The notes below the pieces were generated by a model. It saw only the letters and a program-made list of their open reading frames with translations, searched no databases and was not told the DNA's origin. Position numbers and translations under genes: made by a program. DNA of 64,000 nt, from NCBI GenBank assembly GCA_900474095.1, contig UCOA01000111.1, forward strand, positions 1 to 64,000. The letters are read 5' to 3'. Positions within the stretch are counted from its first letter, which is position 1. The number at the start of each line of letters is the position of its first letter. Below are positions 35,506 to 43,208 of the stretch, in pieces. This DNA is from Hyphomicrobiales bacterium. GTDB taxonomy: Bacteria; Pseudomonadota; Alphaproteobacteria; Rhizobiales; Rhizobiaceae.

Positions 35506-37428
35506 ATGCGGAAACGAAAGCGTCTGCCGACTGTAAGTGTTGCGTACCGGAACGCTGGCACCGCTTTTGCCGTCGCGGCGCTTACCGTCTGCGGGCCTTT
35601 GTCGGTTACCGACGCCCATGCTTTCAAGATCTTCGGCATCAGTTTCTTCGAGAGTGACGAGGAAAAGGTCGAGGTCATCGATCCCGTCAACTATAATCTT
35701 ACCTTGACGGAAGGCTCGGGCGACGAGGACCTGAAGGAGGCACTGGAAAACAGTTCGCGTCTGTTCCAGGACAAGGACAAGCCTGTTTCCGGCGATCTCG
35801 GCCTCGCCATCAAGGCGCGCGACGATCGCGATCGGCTCCTCGCCGCCCTCTATGAACAGGCCCGCTATGGCGGCACGGTCGACGTGAAGGTCAACGGCCA
35901 GGACATCGACACGTTGCCGCCCGACCCCGTGTTTCCCGACGGTGCTCCGGTTTCCGTCGAAATCACCGTGACCCCCGGTCCGGTTTTCACGCTTGGCAAC
36001 GTCGTGCTCAAGGGAGACGCCCTTGGGCGCAGGCCGGACGAATACCTCAAACCCGGCGCGCGGGCAGATTCCACCCTCATCATCAAGGCCGGCGAAAAGG
36101 TTGTCGAGGACTTGAAGGAGGAAGGCCGACCGCTCGCCAGGCTGACGGAACGCAGCGCCATTGCCGATCACAAGACGAATACGGTGGATGTGGTCATCGC
36201 CGCGGAAGGCGGCCCGGTTGCACCGGTCGGCACCGTGACCGTGACCGGCACCAAGACCGTTGATCCCGCCTTCGTCGCCAGCTATTCGCGCCTCAACGGC
36301 GGCAAGCCCTATTCGCCGGAAAACCTGCGCAAGGCCTCCGAACGGCTGCGCCAGCTCGGCGTGTTTTCGAGCATCACCATCAAGGAAGCCAATGAGCTGG
36401 CGCCGGATGGCACCATTCCGATGACCATCGAGGTCTCCGAAGGCAAACACCGCTATTTCGGCGCCGGCGCGCAGTACTCGACGACAGACGGTTTCGGCAT
36501 CCAGGGTTATTGGGGTCATCGCAACCTCTTCGGTCGAGCCGAATCATTGCGCGTCGAGGGCTCCGTCAACCGCATCGGCGAGACGGCCGATGTCGGCAAC
36601 CTTGATTATTCGGCCGGCCTCCTCTTTGCCAAACCCGGTGCCTTCGGACCGGCTTCCATCTTCAATGCCAGCCTGAAGGCGCAGCTCCTCGACCCCGACG
36701 CCTATAGCGCGACGATCTTCACCGGGGCTGCCGGCGCAACCTTCGAGCTGTCCGATACCGACACGATTTCCGGAGGCGCCGAGCTGAGCTGGGCCGACGT
36801 CGACGACGCCTTCGGCTCAAACGAATATCTGACGGCGGCGATCCCGATCGAGTATGTCCGCGATACGCGCGACGACAAGCTGAACCCGACAGCTGGCTAC
36901 CGAGCCTCAATCAACGCCAAGCCGAGCTATGAGATCAACGGCCAGGCCTTCTTCAGTTCATTCGAAGGCTCGGCCTCGGCCTATCTTGGCCTCGGGGAGG
37001 AAGATCGCTTCGTGCTGGCCGGCAAGCTCAGCGCCGGTGTGCTGGCCGGCGGTGACGGCCTTGACTCCATTCCAGCCAACCGGCGCTTCTACCTCGGCGG
37101 CGGCGGCACCGTGCGCGGCTATTCCTATCAGGAAATCAGCCCGCGCAACGCCGATGACGAAATTCTCGGCGGACGCTCCTATGTCAACGCCTCGGTGGAG
37201 GCACGCATCGACATCACCGAAAAGATCGGCATCGTCCCCTTCATCGACGCCGGAACCGTATCGGCCAAAACCGCGCCGGATTTTTCGGATATACGTACGG
37301 GCGCCGGTATCGGCATTCGCTATGCAACGCCATTCGGGCCGATCCGGCTCGATTTCGCGGTGCCGCTGAACGCCTATCCGGACGGCACCAAATACGGGAT
37401 CTATGCCGGCATCGGGCAATCCTTCTGA
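35506..37428 (+). CDS. tamA: TamA, outer-membrane translocation and assembly factor
   Basis: A 640-residue Omp85-family protein. A signal peptide ends near TDAHA-FK. POTRA-like domains cover about 50-300 (YNLTLTEGSGDEDLKEALEN and FTLGNVVLKGDALG; GTVTVTGTKTVDPAFVASYS). A 16-strand beta-barrel covers about 310-640, with the strand-12/13 signature RRFYLGGGGTVRGYSYQEIS (variant of VRGY/F) and a C-terminal Phe (GIYAGIGQSF) as expected for barrel insertion. TamA works with the inner-membrane-anchored TamB, encoded 68 bases downstream, to insert certain outer-membrane proteins and aid phospholipid transport. It forms a two-gene unit with tamB. Confidence 0.93.
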   Translation: MRKRKRLPTVSVAYRNAGTAFAVAALTVCGPLSVTDAHAFKIFGISFFESDEEKVEVIDPVNYNLTLTEGSGDEDLKEALENSSRLFQDKDKPVSGDLGLAIKARDDRDRLLAALYEQARYGGTVDVKVNGQDIDTLPPDPVFPDGAPVSVEITVTPGPVFTLGNVVLKGDALGRRPDEYLKPGARADSTLIIKAGEKVVEDLKEEGRPLARLTERSAIADHKTNTVDVVIAAEGGPVAPVGTVTVTGTKTVDPAFVASYSRLNGGKPYSPENLRKASERLRQLGVFSSITIKEANELAPDGTIPMTIEVSEGKHRYFGAGAQYSTTDGFGIQGYWGHRNLFGRAESLRVEGSVNRIGETADVGNLDYSAGLLFAKPGAFGPASIFNASLKAQLLDPDAYSATIFTGAAGATFELSDTDTISGGAELSWADVDDAFGSNEYLTAAIPIEYVRDTRDDKLNPTAGYRASINAKPSYEINGQAFFSSFEGSASAYLGLGEEDRFVLAGKLSAGVLAGGDGLDSIPANRRFYLGGGGTVRGYSYQEISPRNADDEILGGRSYVNASVEARIDITEKIGIVPFIDAGTVSAKTAPDFSDIRTGAGIGIRYATPFGPIRLDFAVPLNAYPDGTKYGIYAGIGQSF

Positions 37429-37496: not shown

Positions 37497-40400
37497 ATGA
37501 ATCGTTTCCTCCGTTTCCTGAAAGCCGCGTCGCGCTGGTTCCTCTATTGCCTCGGTCTCGTCCTTGTCGCCGCGGTGTTGTTCCTCGTCTTTGCCGGCTT
37601 TACGGCGCCCGGCGCGCGGCTTGTCGCCGCGATGATCGAGAAATACGCCTCGACCCCCGACCAGATCGTCCGCATCAATGATCCGAGTGCGCTGCTCACG
37701 GGCGATTTCACCGCTTCCAGCGTCACCCTGTTCGACAGCAAGGGCGTTTATGCGGAAATCCGCGAAGTCGCCATCGACTGGTCGCCGACAGCGCTTTTTG
37801 CCAAACGTTTCGAAGCGACGAAACTGTCCGCCGGATCCGTGCGTCTTGAACGGTTGCCGATCCCTTCGCAGGAAACCCGCGAGGTCCGTGAAACCTTCGC
37901 CTTGCCGCTCGATGTCAAGATCGATGCCTTTGACCTTGAAGACGTCGTCATCGGCAAGGAGATCGCCGGCGTCGATCAGTTCCTGAGTGCCGAGGGCAAG
38001 CTGGACGCAACCAATGCCAGCATTGCCACAGCCCTTGCCGTCGCGCAGCGCGACCGGCCGGACGCCAAGGCGATCGCGGACATCGTCTTCAATCCGGCCG
38101 GCAACGAGTTGAGGCTGGAGACCACGATCGAGGAGCCCAAGGGTGGACTGCTCGCCAAGGCCATGCGCCTGCCTGGCGAACCGGCGATCAGCGTCAACGT
38201 CACCGGCCAGGGGCCGCTTTCCAACTGGAGCGGCACGGCAACCGCCGCACTCGATGGCAACGAGGTGCTGAAGCTCGGCGGCCAGCACACGTTGGCGGCC
38301 GATGGGTTCCGCACCGTCTCGCTGAAGGGCGGCGGCACGTTCAGCGATCTTCTGCCGGCCGCCTTCAGGCCGCTGTTCGAAGGCACGACCGACATCGACC
38401 TTTCCGCAGCCATCGACGGCAAGACCGTCCGCATCCAGACGGGCAATGTCTCGACCGGCGCGCTGACGCTGTCGGCGTCCGGTACCTACAGCACGGCGGG
38501 GCAAAACGACCTGCACGCGAGCCTCACCGGCAAGAACGGCCCGATCGATTTCCGCCTGCCGCTGGAAAAAGGCGAGGCTCAGCTCGCAATCGACAAGGCA
38601 AGCGTCTCGTTGATCGGCGATGCACAAACTGCCGTGCTCGACATCGGCGCCGAGGTCGGCAAGGCAACCCTGCCCCAAGGTGAGATCGAGGCGATCAAGC
38701 TGCACGCCTATAGCGACGCCTTCAACCTTACGACCCGCACCGGCCCGCTGAAAACCACGATCGAAACCGGTGCGACCCGCTTTGCCAGCGCCGATCTCGA
38801 CCGGCTCCTCAAGGGACCGGTCAAGCTCGACGGCACGCTGTCGCTGACGCCGGAAACGGCATCGTTCGATCCGATTACGATCGAGAGCGCCAGTATCGGC
38901 GGCACATTGATCGGCTCCTACACGATCGCCGAAAACACGGTCGCGACCGGCTTCAAGCTCTTTGCCGTGCCCGCCGTCCTGCCGCCGGCGCTGGCTGCGA
39001 AATTTGACACGACGATTGCGATTGAAGGCAACCTTGGAACCGGCGCCAATGGCCGCGTCGATGTCAGCGACCTAACCATAAAGTCCGGAACCGTGAGCGC
39101 CGCGGGCTCGGCTGCTCTCGAACCCGGCAATCTCACCGCCGAGATCACCGGCACTGTGCCGGAAATCGGCAAGCTTCTTGCCGACGCCAAGGGTGCCGCC
39201 GCCTTCAGCGCCGACGTGACCGGGCCTCTCGATGCGCTCGCCGTCAAGGCGAAGATCACATCGAGCGAGACAACGCTTGCCGGCCGCACCCTGAACGATC
39301 TTTTAGTCAACGCCGACGCCGTCGTCGGCCGCGATGGACCGACGGGGACTGTCACCGCCAGCGGTAGCCTGGAGGGACAGGCGATCAACGCTAAGGCCGA
39401 TATCGCGACGGCGAAAGGCACGACCAATGTTCCGTCATTCGAGGCGGTGATCGGGTCAAACACCCTGAAAGGTTCGCTGGACCTGACGGCGGAATTTGAG
39501 CCGAGCGGCTCGCTGGCCTTCAACTTCCCGGATGTCGGGCTGCTGGCCGCGATGGCCGGGCAGATCGCGTCCGGCGATCTCGCCGGCTCGGCCAGCATCA
39601 AGACGGAAAACGGCGTCACCTCGGTGGCGGTCAAGGCCAATGGATCCGGCATAACACGCGGTGATCTGGTGATCACCAGGCCAACGGCCGACATCACCAT
39701 CGCCGATCTCGAAGCGCTCGCAATAAAGGGTGCCGTGACGGTCGAGGAAGTGAAGCAGGGCAGCAACCGCCTCGCCAGCGTCAATCTCGGCTTCGAGCAG
39801 CAGGACAACAGGACGAATTTCGCCCTCGACGGCACCTATGACGCCGCCCCGCTCAGCGCCCGCGGCGATCTGCACAGCGCTGCCGGCCGCACGACGATCA
39901 ATCTGCAATCCTTCGCGGCAGCACCAAAGAAAATCCCGCTGGAACTGGCCAACCCGACGACCATCGTCCTCGAGAACGGCGCGGTCAACCTGCAGCGACT
40001 GGCGATCGGAGTGTCGGGTGGAACGGTGACGCTCACCGGCAGCGCCGGCGAAAGACTCGCCTTGACAGCGGAACTTGCCAGCATCGAATCCAGCCTGCCG
40101 CTTGAAGGCGGCGAGGCACGTATGGCGCTCGATACCGGCACCGCCTCGATCAACGGCGATATGCATTCCGCCGTTCTCGACGTGACGGCCAATGTTGGCG
40201 AGATCGCACTGCCGCAAGGCCGTTTCGAGGCCGTCAAACTGACGGCGCACAGCGACGCCTTCAATCTCACCACGCGCACCGGCCCGGTTGCGGCGACGAT
40301 CGAGGCCGGTGCGACGCAACTTACAAATGCCGATCTCGACCGGTTGGTCAAAGGCCCGCTCACGGTGGCAACGACGCTCGCCGTGACGCCCGAAACGCTC

Positions 40401-43208
40401 GGTTTCAGCCCGATCACGATCGGCAGCGCCAACCTCGACGGCGCGCTCGCCGGCACCTTCAGCCTTGTCGACAACAGGCTGAACACCACCTTCAGGCTTT
40501 CCGCCCGCCCTGCCGCCCTGCCCGCTTCCGTCGCCGCGAAATTCGATGCGCCGGTGAACGTCGCCGGCACGCTTGCGACTGGCCCCGACGGCGCCGTCGA
40601 CATCACGAATCTCAACGTGACCTCCAGCACGCTCCAGGCCGCCGGTTCTGTTGCGCTCAGGGCGCAGACCCTGACGGCCGCGCTGACCGGCACGGTGCTC
40701 GACCTCGGCAAGGTCCTGGCTGATGCAGAAGGCCAGGCCAACTTCACGGTTGATGCCACCGGCCCGCTCGACAATCTCGGCGTCAAGGCAGACGTCACGT
40801 CCCGCGGCGCGACGCTTGCCGGCCGCACATTGAGCGACCTGCAACTGACGGCCGACGCAACCGCCAACCCGAAGAACCCGCAGGCCAAGATAACCGCCAC
40901 CGGCGCGCTCGGCGGCCAGGCCATCAACGTCAAGGCCGACCTCGTTTCCAAGGACGGTCGCACCAGCGTGCCGGTTCTTCAGGTGCGGATCGGCGAAAAC
41001 ACGCTGAACGGCGTTGTCGACTTCACGTCCGACTTCCTGCCGCAGGGGACGATCGACTTCACCTTCCCCGATGTCGGGCTGCTGGCGGCCATGGCCGGGG
41101 AAAAGGCCTCCGGCGATCTCGCAGGGTCGGCGTCCATCAAAAGCGATGGTGGCACAACCTCGATCGCGCTCAAGGCCAGCGGCTCCGGCATCAAGCGCGG
41201 TGACCTCGTCATCACTAAACCGGTAGCGGACATCACCATCGCCGATTTGAAGGCGCTGGCGATCAAGGGCAATCTTTCCGTCGAGACCTTTGCCCAAGGC
41301 GCAAATCGCGTCAGCGGCCTGAAGCTCGATTTCGTCCAGCAGGCAAACCAGACCAATGTCGCTCTCGACGGTAACTATGATGGCGCGCCGCTCAAGCTGC
41401 GCGCCGATATCCAGACGGCGGGAGGCAAAACGACGGTTGATCTCTCCTCCTTCACCGCCACCCCGAGAAAGATCCCGGTCAAACTCTCGGCACCGACGAC
41501 GGTCACCATCGAAAACGGCACGGTCAGCCTGCAGAAGCTGACGATCGGGGCATCCGGCGGCACGATCGCCATCACCGGATCGGCCGGCGAAAAGCTTGAT
41601 CTCGCCATCACCCTCAATGCCCTGCCCGCCAGGCTCGCCAACACCTTCGCACCCTCGCTCGGGGCGGACGGCGCCATCAGCGGCACGGTTGGGGTCAAGG
41701 GCACATCGGCGGCACCGGTCGCTACCTATGACCTGCGCTGGGCGAACGCTGCAGTCGCTCAAGCCAAGTCGGCGGGCGTTGGGGCGCTGGACATTAGCGC
41801 CAAGGGCCAGTTCGCCGACAACACAGTCACGCTCGACGCGACGATCAGCGGTTCGGGTGGCCTTTCTTTCCGGGGCGGCGGCAAGATCGGCCTGACCGGC
41901 AACCGGCCGATCGACATGAAATTCTCCGGCAACCTTCCCTTCGGCCTCGCCGCCGGTCTGCTGGCGCAGCAGGGCTTCACGCTGACGGGCGCTGCCAACG
42001 TCGATCTCGCCATCAGGGGCGCGGCGACCGCGCCGCAGATAACCGGCACGATCTCGACCTCCGGCGCCCGCCTTGTCGATGTCCGCCGCAACCTCGCGAT
42101 TACCGATCTGACGGCCAATATTTCGCTCGATGGCAAACAGGCGACGATTTCCAAATTATCCGGGCGGCTTGCCAGCGGCGGTTCGCTCGATGTCACCGGC
42201 ACCGTCGGCATCGCGCCCGGCTCCGGCTTTCCGGCCGATCTTTCGATCCGACTCGACAACGCAACCTATGTCGACGGAAGTCTGTTTACGGCCAATGTCG
42301 ATGGCGCTCTGACCCTCAAGGGCTCGCTCACGGCGACGCCGGTGCTGGGCGGCAAGGTCACCATCCAGAAAGCGGCGATCACTATCCCGGAAAAACTTCC
42401 GGCTTCGCTGTCTGAAATCAACATCAAGCACAAAAATGCTCCGGCCAGGGTCCGCCAGATGCAGGCGGATGTCCAAAGCGACACTGCAAGCAGCGGCGGA
42501 GCCAAGGGCGGCGGCGTGGCCTTCGACCTCGCCGTCCATGCGCCTGGAAAGCTATTCGTCCGCGGTCGCGGTATTGACGCCGAACTCGGCGGCGATCTGA
42601 CGATCCGCGGCACCGCCGCCCAGCCGGCCGTCACCGGCGGTTTCGAGATGCGGCGCGGCCGATTGGAAATTCTCGGCAAGCGGCTCGACTTCTCGGAAGG
42701 CACGATCAGCTTCGGCGGCAACCTCATCCCGACGCTCGACCTCGATGCGACGTCGACTGCAGGTTCGACGACGATCACCGTCAATGTCGCCGGTCTTGCC
42801 AACAATCCGACCATCACCTTCTCATCTTCGCCCGCTCTGCCGCAGGACGAGATCCTGGCGCAGCTGATCTTCAACCGGTCGCTGTCCAACCTGTCGGCCC
42901 TGCAGATCGCGCAGCTCGCAAGCGCCGTCAGCCAACTGGCAGGCGGCGGCTCCAACTCGCTGCTCGACGGATTGCGCAACAAGCTTGGCGTCGACGACCT
43001 CGATGTCTCGACCGACGCCAGCGGCGGCGCCCAGGTCACGGCCGGCAAATATCTGAACGATCGGACCTATCTGCAGCTTCAATCAGGCTCCGAGGCTGGC
43101 GGCGGCAAGGCGATCATCAATCTCGACGTCGGCCGCGGCGTCAAGCTGCGCGGCGAAGCCGGCAGCAGCGGCACAGGTGCGGGTATCTTTTACGAGAAGG
43201 AATATTGA
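37497..43208 (+). CDS. tamB: TamB, giant with internal tandem duplication
   Basis: A 1903-residue AsmA-like periplasm-spanning protein, well above the roughly 1260 of E. coli TamB. A single N-terminal membrane helix (WFLYCLGLVLVAAVLFLVFA, about 15-37) anchors it. The body is a long beta-taco groove for lipids. The C-terminal DUF490 domain starts near 1560: KLFVRGRGIDAELGGDLTIR, RRGRLEILGKRLDFSEGTI, LPQDEILAQLIFNRSLSNLS. Residues about 354-866 and 867-1370 are two copies of one 513-residue unit in perfect register (1539 bp; anchors LPLEKGEA/LPLEGGEA, SDAFNLTTRTGP, FPDVGLLAAMAG). Partner of tamA. Confidence 0.93.
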   Translation: MNRFLRFLKAASRWFLYCLGLVLVAAVLFLVFAGFTAPGARLVAAMIEKYASTPDQIVRINDPSALLTGDFTASSVTLFDSKGVYAEIREVAIDWSPTALFAKRFEATKLSAGSVRLERLPIPSQETREVRETFALPLDVKIDAFDLEDVVIGKEIAGVDQFLSAEGKLDATNASIATALAVAQRDRPDAKAIADIVFNPAGNELRLETTIEEPKGGLLAKAMRLPGEPAISVNVTGQGPLSNWSGTATAALDGNEVLKLGGQHTLAADGFRTVSLKGGGTFSDLLPAAFRPLFEGTTDIDLSAAIDGKTVRIQTGNVSTGALTLSASGTYSTAGQNDLHASLTGKNGPIDFRLPLEKGEAQLAIDKASVSLIGDAQTAVLDIGAEVGKATLPQGEIEAIKLHAYSDAFNLTTRTGPLKTTIETGATRFASADLDRLLKGPVKLDGTLSLTPETASFDPITIESASIGGTLIGSYTIAENTVATGFKLFAVPAVLPPALAAKFDTTIAIEGNLGTGANGRVDVSDLTIKSGTVSAAGSAALEPGNLTAEITGTVPEIGKLLADAKGAAAFSADVTGPLDALAVKAKITSSETTLAGRTLNDLLVNADAVVGRDGPTGTVTASGSLEGQAINAKADIATAKGTTNVPSFEAVIGSNTLKGSLDLTAEFEPSGSLAFNFPDVGLLAAMAGQIASGDLAGSASIKTENGVTSVAVKANGSGITRGDLVITRPTADITIADLEALAIKGAVTVEEVKQGSNRLASVNLGFEQQDNRTNFALDGTYDAAPLSARGDLHSAAGRTTINLQSFAAAPKKIPLELANPTTIVLENGAVNLQRLAIGVSGGTVTLTGSAGERLALTAELASIESSLPLEGGEARMALDTGTASINGDMHSAVLDVTANVGEIALPQGRFEAVKLTAHSDAFNLTTRTGPVAATIEAGATQLTNADLDRLVKGPLTVATTLAVTPETLGFSPITIGSANLDGALAGTFSLVDNRLNTTFRLSARPAALPASVAAKFDAPVNVAGTLATGPDGAVDITNLNVTSSTLQAAGSVALRAQTLTAALTGTVLDLGKVLADAEGQANFTVDATGPLDNLGVKADVTSRGATLAGRTLSDLQLTADATANPKNPQAKITATGALGGQAINVKADLVSKDGRTSVPVLQVRIGENTLNGVVDFTSDFLPQGTIDFTFPDVGLLAAMAGEKASGDLAGSASIKSDGGTTSIALKASGSGIKRGDLVITKPVADITIADLKALAIKGNLSVETFAQGANRVSGLKLDFVQQANQTNVALDGNYDGAPLKLRADIQTAGGKTTVDLSSFTATPRKIPVKLSAPTTVTIENGTVSLQKLTIGASGGTIAITGSAGEKLDLAITLNALPARLANTFAPSLGADGAISGTVGVKGTSAAPVATYDLRWANAAVAQAKSAGVGALDISAKGQFADNTVTLDATISGSGGLSFRGGGKIGLTGNRPIDMKFSGNLPFGLAAGLLAQQGFTLTGAANVDLAIRGAATAPQITGTISTSGARLVDVRRNLAITDLTANISLDGKQATISKLSGRLASGGSLDVTGTVGIAPGSGFPADLSIRLDNATYVDGSLFTANVDGALTLKGSLTATPVLGGKVTIQKAAITIPEKLPASLSEINIKHKNAPARVRQMQADVQSDTASSGGAKGGGVAFDLAVHAPGKLFVRGRGIDAELGGDLTIRGTAAQPAVTGGFEMRRGRLEILGKRLDFSEGTISFGGNLIPTLDLDATSTAGSTTITVNVAGLANNPTITFSSSPALPQDEILAQLIFNRSLSNLSALQIAQLASAVSQLAGGGSNSLLDGLRNKLGVDDLDVSTDASGGAQVTAGKYLNDRTYLQLQSGSEAGGGKAIINLDVGRGVKLRGEAGSSGTGAGIFYEKEY
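38556..41600 (+). repeat. 1539-bp tandem duplication inside tamB
   Basis: Copy 1 begins about 38556 and copy 2 about 40095. Three anchors far apart give the same offset of exactly 1539 bases: LPLE at 38556/40095, SDAFNLTTRTGP at 38712/40251, and FPDVGLLAAMAG at about 39531/41070. There are therefore no net indels between the anchors. DNA is still clearly alike in the last third, which argues for a fairly young or gene-converted duplication. The right end is placed near the SAGEKLDL motif and is approximate. Confidence 0.88.

Follow-up and report, generated by a model that had tools for sequence, protein, structure and literature searches.

A doubled 513-residue segment lengthens TamB in a soil Rhizobiaceae bacterium and in its relatives

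TamB is a grooved protein that probably carries lipids between the two membranes, and the locus described here encodes a long form of it. The gene lies in a 64,000-nucleotide stretch of DNA (the window; contig UCOA01000111.1, positions 1 to 64,000, assembly GCA_900474095.1) from a soil bacterium of the Hyphomicrobiales, family Rhizobiaceae. It occupies positions 37497..43208 of the forward (+) strand and encodes 1903 residues, whereas E. coli TamB, a member of the TAM complex for which a TamAB cryo-EM structure is available, has 1259 (PMC12800296). The C-terminal TamB (DUF490) domain (residues 1554-1903; 42156..43205, +) matched PF04357 with E 6.6e-59 and 200.5 bits against a Pfam cut-off of 22.4, and was recovered at the same place in a whole-genome search. 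The upstream gene (35506..37428, +; 640 aa), which ends 68 bp 5' of tamB, is tamA-like, with an Omp85 barrel (E 6.8e-64) and POTRA (E 1e-11) according to Pfam. A PDB sequence search with the protein returned solved TamB chains (23sp_B and 9xdc_B), and the predicted C-terminal fold was matched by Foldseek to 9xdc_B (E 9.6e-9), 9xdd_B (1.2e-7) and 5vtg_A (4.2e-3). The window's TamB resembles that of E. coli in its C-terminal DUF490, its adjoining TamA-like gene and its match to the 9xdc_B fold, and may resemble it in having a long beta-groove; it differs in being about 640 residues longer, with a 513-residue segment doubled.

When all self-diagonals of the protein were scanned, residues 327-867 aligned with residues 840-1380, always 513 residues (1539 bp) apart, over 541 gap-free columns of which 295 (55%) were identical. 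This diagonal scored 1500 and the runner-up 71, while shuffled versions of the sequence reached at most 65 (100 shuffles) and single-copy TamBs 50-62 (n = 11). A first-pass annotation of the window had proposed an exact, in-frame, head-to-tail duplication of 1539 bp without net gap; the single gap-free diagonal bears out the arrangement and the length, but "exact" does not extend to the sequence, as the copies share 64.6% of their DNA and 288 of 513 residues. Because the diagonal exceeds the 513-residue offset by 28 columns, the block may begin anywhere in residues 327-355 (38475..38561, +; codons 38475-38559), a stretch to which similar sequence recurs at residues 840-867 and 1353-1380. We placed the borders, whose phase is arbitrary within that range, so that copy A comprises residues 340-852 (38514..40052, +) and copy B residues 853-1365 (40053..41591, +), consistent with the span of 38556-41600 proposed earlier. 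The duplication also explains, as had been suggested, the length of the protein: 1903 minus 513 leaves 1390, the size of the single-copy TamB of relatives (1393 in G001, G091 and G169, and about 1395-1400, after correction, in the R. tropici group). The window's TamB is therefore about one third longer than its single-copy relatives through a doubled middle stretch.

The same annotation had taken the strong DNA similarity of the last third of the copies to suggest a recent event or continued recombination, and here the data point the other way. Identity between A and B is 0.70, 0.75 and 0.49 at the three codon positions, no exact run exceeds 18 nt, and fourfold residues share their third position at a rate of 0.544, against 0.456 for random choice among the gene's own codons. 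The divergence (NG86) amounts to dN 0.36 and dS 0.97, the latter near the limit of the method; with synonymous sites so close to saturation the event is old, and a recent duplication is ruled out. The lack of any long exact tract argues against continued recombination in this gene, as does the fact that, within the genus, A copies and B copies fall into distinct clades. As for the last third, its higher DNA identity (68%, against 62-63% for the others) reflects constraint, since in 6 of 7 comparisons between species, too, no other third was more similar. Purifying selection acts on both copies, if somewhat less strictly than on the flanks (dN/dS 0.03-0.21 for A and B in 8 species pairs of the genus; 0.02-0.12 for the N and C flanks).

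The doubling is widespread. An intact TamB with an offset of 513 or 516 was found in 22 of the 24 genomes of the genus, among whose named members Rhizobium giardinii H152, R. herbae and Pararhizobium polonicum carry the repeat, and 23 are doubled if we count G020, where the frame is contiguous across the A/B junction, yet the gene is spread across two contigs and has two frame breaks. All 14 of loci L057-L070 had the repeat, and no self-diagonal above 110 was seen in any of 26 R. tropici-group loci (L071-L085, L087-L090 and L092-L098; L086, with broken frames, and L091, cut off, were left unscored). Beyond the genus, seven genomes (G114, G031, G131, G160, G033, G074 and G125) harbor a two-copy block with a main offset of 516-542, and in G077 collinearity extends across both copies, interrupted by a single frame break near residue 990. 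The frame breaks in the tamB of L121 (G077), L023/L026 (G020) and L086 represent either sequencing error or decay. That the whole duplication is an assembly artefact, or a one-off event, is an idea to which the draft state of the window's genome (279 contigs) lends some colour; a doubling common to 23 of 24 congeneric genomes is not an artefact, however, and copies only 64.6% alike in DNA are not what one would produce, so that we regard this explanation as having a negligible chance of being right.

When mapped on a 59-genome rpoB tree (60 genomes were asked for, and G117 gave no match), the 513-like state required 6 changes, whereas 500 shuffles required 16.9 on average and never fewer than 12. 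In a tree of the repeat units (78 rows), one clade (100/99) united the B copies from the genus with those of G114, G031 and G131. G160, G074 and G033 may share the duplication of the genus: their blocks measure 518-520 residues and overlap that of the genus in their start, and their B copies grouped with the other Bs in a first-half tree (SH-aLRT 90-93); in the full-unit tree, however, both their A and B copies sat with the single-copy L042/L044 (100/97). The duplication probably dates to an ancestor that the Pararhizobium / R. giardinii group shared with some neighbouring genera, both copies having since been retained.

One member of this otherwise doubled genus, G001 (L134), has a single-copy TamB, and the rpoB tree places it as sister to the duplication-bearing G020 (99.8/100). 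The first ~200 residues of its unit are A-like and the following ones mostly equal or B-like, so that it looks like an A/B recombinant, and derivation by loss of one copy is likely. It is not proven, because the half-unit trees do not bear it out (G001 lies outside G020_A in the first half and is unplaced in the second) and because A's start and B's end are the slower-evolving parts in general. A single-copy member inside the genus nevertheless implies that the second copy is dispensable or open to loss.

Elsewhere in the family, TamB carries two-copy blocks that differ in size: 619 residues in G120, 622-626 in G093, G170, G283, G417 and G441, 562-569 in G084, 531 in G100, and 477-479 in G154 and G065, with G104 as a complex case. 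In the numbering of the window's TamB, in which its own block starts at 327-355, these begin near 224, 262-312, 215-220, 222-228 and 413-472, and the block of G125 at 368-386 (all hand-read estimates). A single ancestral duplication for all block forms was rejected: a clade of all A copies gave an AU p of 7.7e-7 (delta log-likelihood 784), in a test of 32 rows on a quick tree where gene conversion can mimic independent origin. With this reserve, the differing end points and the rejected clade indicate at least five further duplication events besides the window's. Genus g71 comprises block-duplicated members plus two single-copy ones, G453 and G455. Gene conversion probably does occur in the family, as suggested by the G120 copies (L111), which are identical over 1751 nt with a diverged junction of ~106 nt between them; their identity reflects either recent conversion inside an older duplication or an assembly effect.

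TamB has also been extended in much smaller units. A module of ~101 residues, found once in single-copy TamBs and once in the window's (residues 1337-1437; 41505..41807, +; the L103 module profile gave one match to L001, the window's TamB, at open-frame positions 1338-1438), occurs 2-9 times in tandem in many others. Tandem modules of 101-107 residues were detected in L099-L110, L117, L118, L128-L133, L198-L200, L203, L204, L206-L209 and L218; L101 gave 10 matches, the tenth extending into the C-terminal domain. Module number and corrected TamB length were correlated with r 0.991, at 96.6 residues per module, in 36 proteins that exclude the block-duplicated L001, L112 and L116 and the uncorrected L225. 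TamB length in the family consequently climbs in steps of ~100 residues from ~1390 to ~2270, through 1388-1393 aa (1 module), 1497 (2), 1600 (3), 1703 (4), 1793 (5), 1999 (7), 2097-2103 (8) and 2187-2199 (9 or 10), up to the longest, 2267 (G265, 9 modules). Congeners may stand a single module apart, as do G050 (3 modules, 1600 aa) and G145 (4, 1703 aa), or G051 and G146 (7 each) and G490 (8).

These lengths were corrected for upstream stop-free stretches, which inflate stop-to-stop frames (L099 from 2826 to ~2103; corrected values 2195 for L100, 2199 for L101, 1548 for L135, 1551 for L136, 1438 for L201, 1553 for L202, 1449 for L205, 1443 for L223 and 1449 for L224). In L099, L100 and L101 some 530-740 stop-free residues run in frame with tamB; they match neither the window's TamA nor any Pfam entry and are probably non-coding, a fusion with tamB being possible. 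After correction, a TamB of 1800 aa or more was present in at least 31 of 141 family genomes among the matches listed and in 11 of the 85 genomes matched across the order, with internal repeats in each one that could be checked; beyond the order (124 matched genomes), the sole listed open frame of that size was that of G454 (2043). A putative class of long repeat-free TamBs vanished with the correction, save for two frames from outside the order without an N-region match: L226 (G454), which showed no self-diagonal above 110, and L228 (G380), of 1676 residues, with a weak one (offset 102, score 231). L227 (G443, same class, another order) bears a 100-residue TamB repeat that does not match the 101-residue module profile and is perhaps a different module. 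TamB in the family grew by several separate block duplications (478-626 residues) and by tandem module amplification.

Residues 1-1050 and 850-1903 were modelled separately with AlphaFold (34 sequences each; pLDDT 76.8 and 74.1, pTM 0.48 and 0.43), and these moderate-quality models contain ~30 strands of at least 5 residues in A, ~32 in B and ~102 groove strands in total. All 29 A strands used had a B strand centred within 3 residues of the +513 position, whereas at 146 other offsets the number with such a partner averaged 10.8 and never exceeded 21; predicted strands in such register suggest that the duplication added about 30 strands. Confidence drops at 810-841 and 1321-1365, equivalent places at the ends of both copies, and given this and the moderate quality of the models, a continuous groove across the two copies is not proven; a longer or coiled groove is possible. 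A helix at residues 2-33, a candidate for the N-terminal inner-membrane helix of TamB, was predicted with pLDDT below 50. Foldseek with the N-terminal model returned nothing closer than remote, large beta structures (ApoB, for instance), which were not used, and no VPS13 chain appeared among the best 50 matches of either model.

A wider envelope, which the first-pass annotation had listed among the possible consequences of the greater length, might instead have demanded the longer bridge. The published dimensions leave room for this: models of E. coli TamB measure 17.8 nm, and 24.6 nm under simulated stretching, where the periplasm is ~26 nm wide (PMC11014939), and plain proportion gives 26.9-37.2 nm for 1903 aa. 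In a wider envelope, YhdP, a parallel bridge, would be expected to be longer as well. YhdP-like frames nevertheless measured 1132-1229 aa irrespective of TamB length (rho -0.007; 28 genomes, stop-to-stop frames), with a median of 1162 where TamB is below 1500 (10 genomes) and 1150 where it exceeds 1800 (18 genomes). The set stems from a PF13116 search of 42 genomes, 32 of which matched and 28 of which were usable (9 of these scored below the Pfam cut-off; G020, G033, G072 and G122 were dropped); since the 10 unmatched genomes include most 101-residue arrays, the comparison spans block duplications and two 107-residue arrays only. Within that range the flat YhdP-like length speaks against a simply wider envelope, as do genera g1, g28, g29 and g71, each of which holds TamBs of unlike length. 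We therefore consider it unlikely that TamB length merely follows envelope width; from the flat YhdP-like length we favour slack or a tuned length in TamB itself as the effect. A literature search found no published periplasm width for related bacteria.

The main competitor of that inference is neutral growth, whereby an in-register duplication is tolerated by the stacked-strand fold, drifts and is later kept as its copies diverge and come to need one another, the length itself bringing no benefit. The many block sizes and end points, gain and loss within genera (G001; g71) and the constant YhdP-like length are all in keeping with it, and we hold it to be a real possibility, though not the one we would choose, as long forms recur in this family far more than in the genomes listed beyond the order and as selection has been purifying on both copies. 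Alternatively, copy B, chiefly its first third, may have turned into a docking or regulatory surface rather than groove. Between L001 and L014 that third retains 57% identity, compared with 84% for the first third of A, and its fast evolution may mark a changed or relaxed role; the remaining thirds of B are conserved as well as those of A or better. Every predicted A strand has its counterpart in B, however, and Pfam detected no new domain in the window's TamB, which makes such a specialisation improbable.

The reading we prefer, with a probability of roughly 0.75, is that a central groove segment (513 residues, ~30 strands) was doubled in frame before the Pararhizobium / R. giardinii group and some neighbouring genera diverged and was then retained, yielding a longer bridge that keeps the role of TamB with slack. 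Because the groove would be a stack of similar strands, copying a segment in register would add length and leave the fold intact. The longer protein would still serve outer-membrane assembly, and probably also phospholipid flow to TamA, and the slack would be taken up as a coiled, tilted or bent groove instead of bridging a wider periplasm. The window's TamB would then be one instance of a general habit of the Hyphomicrobiales, in which TamB length is changed by copying groove modules.

PqiB and LetB are MCE-ring envelope bridges whose length varies. Together with elongated MlaD, an envelope lipid bridge also of variable length (PMC10665443), they offer a trans-envelope lipid path of adjustable length, but their folds are other than that of TamB and their length is set by ring number or helix length. 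VPS13C and VPS13D, bridge-like lipid transfer proteins, gained extra groove length via internal duplications of ~500 residues, with repeated central duplication (Levine 2022, PMC7613979); there too a bridge was lengthened by internal duplication of groove segments, although these proteins are eukaryotic and the TamB duplication would be an independent event. Among alphaproteobacterial TamBs, Brucella suis MapB (1579 aa) has a second, incomplete DUF490 match at 916-1088, consistent with repeats in the corresponding region; no 500-residue block is reported there, and module amplification is not known to be described for it (PMC6377625). An earlier survey described a TamB length that varies little apart from a handful of very long proteins (Heinz 2015, PMC4494059); against this, long TamBs are frequent in one order, and those of 1800 aa or more after correction that were checkable all contain internal repeats. 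TamB and its groove are thus already known, as is bridge growth by ~500 residues, and in the sources covered by our search, which took in few subscription journals and preprints, we found no report that TamB has been lengthened repeatedly, whether by blocks or along a module ladder.

More tentatively, and at somewhat less than even odds, TamB of the Hyphomicrobiales may be a quantised, evolvable bridge, changing in ~100-residue steps or 478-626-residue doublings, shifting within genera without a matching change in YhdP-like length, and acting less as a taut rod matched to periplasm width than as a slack or spring-like conduit tuned to, for example, places where the envelope curves, grows or divides. 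How bridge length relates to the gap crossed is an open question for TamB and VPS13-like bridges alike; for the latter, the relation of domain number to contact width is reported as yet to be studied (Levine 2022, PMC7613979). The repeated lengthening of TamB in relatives, by copying other stretches, provides a natural test of what causes bridge length, with ready-made pairs one module apart (G145/G050; G490 versus G051/G146) or one block apart (G001 versus the rest of its genus; G453/G455 versus the rest of g71).
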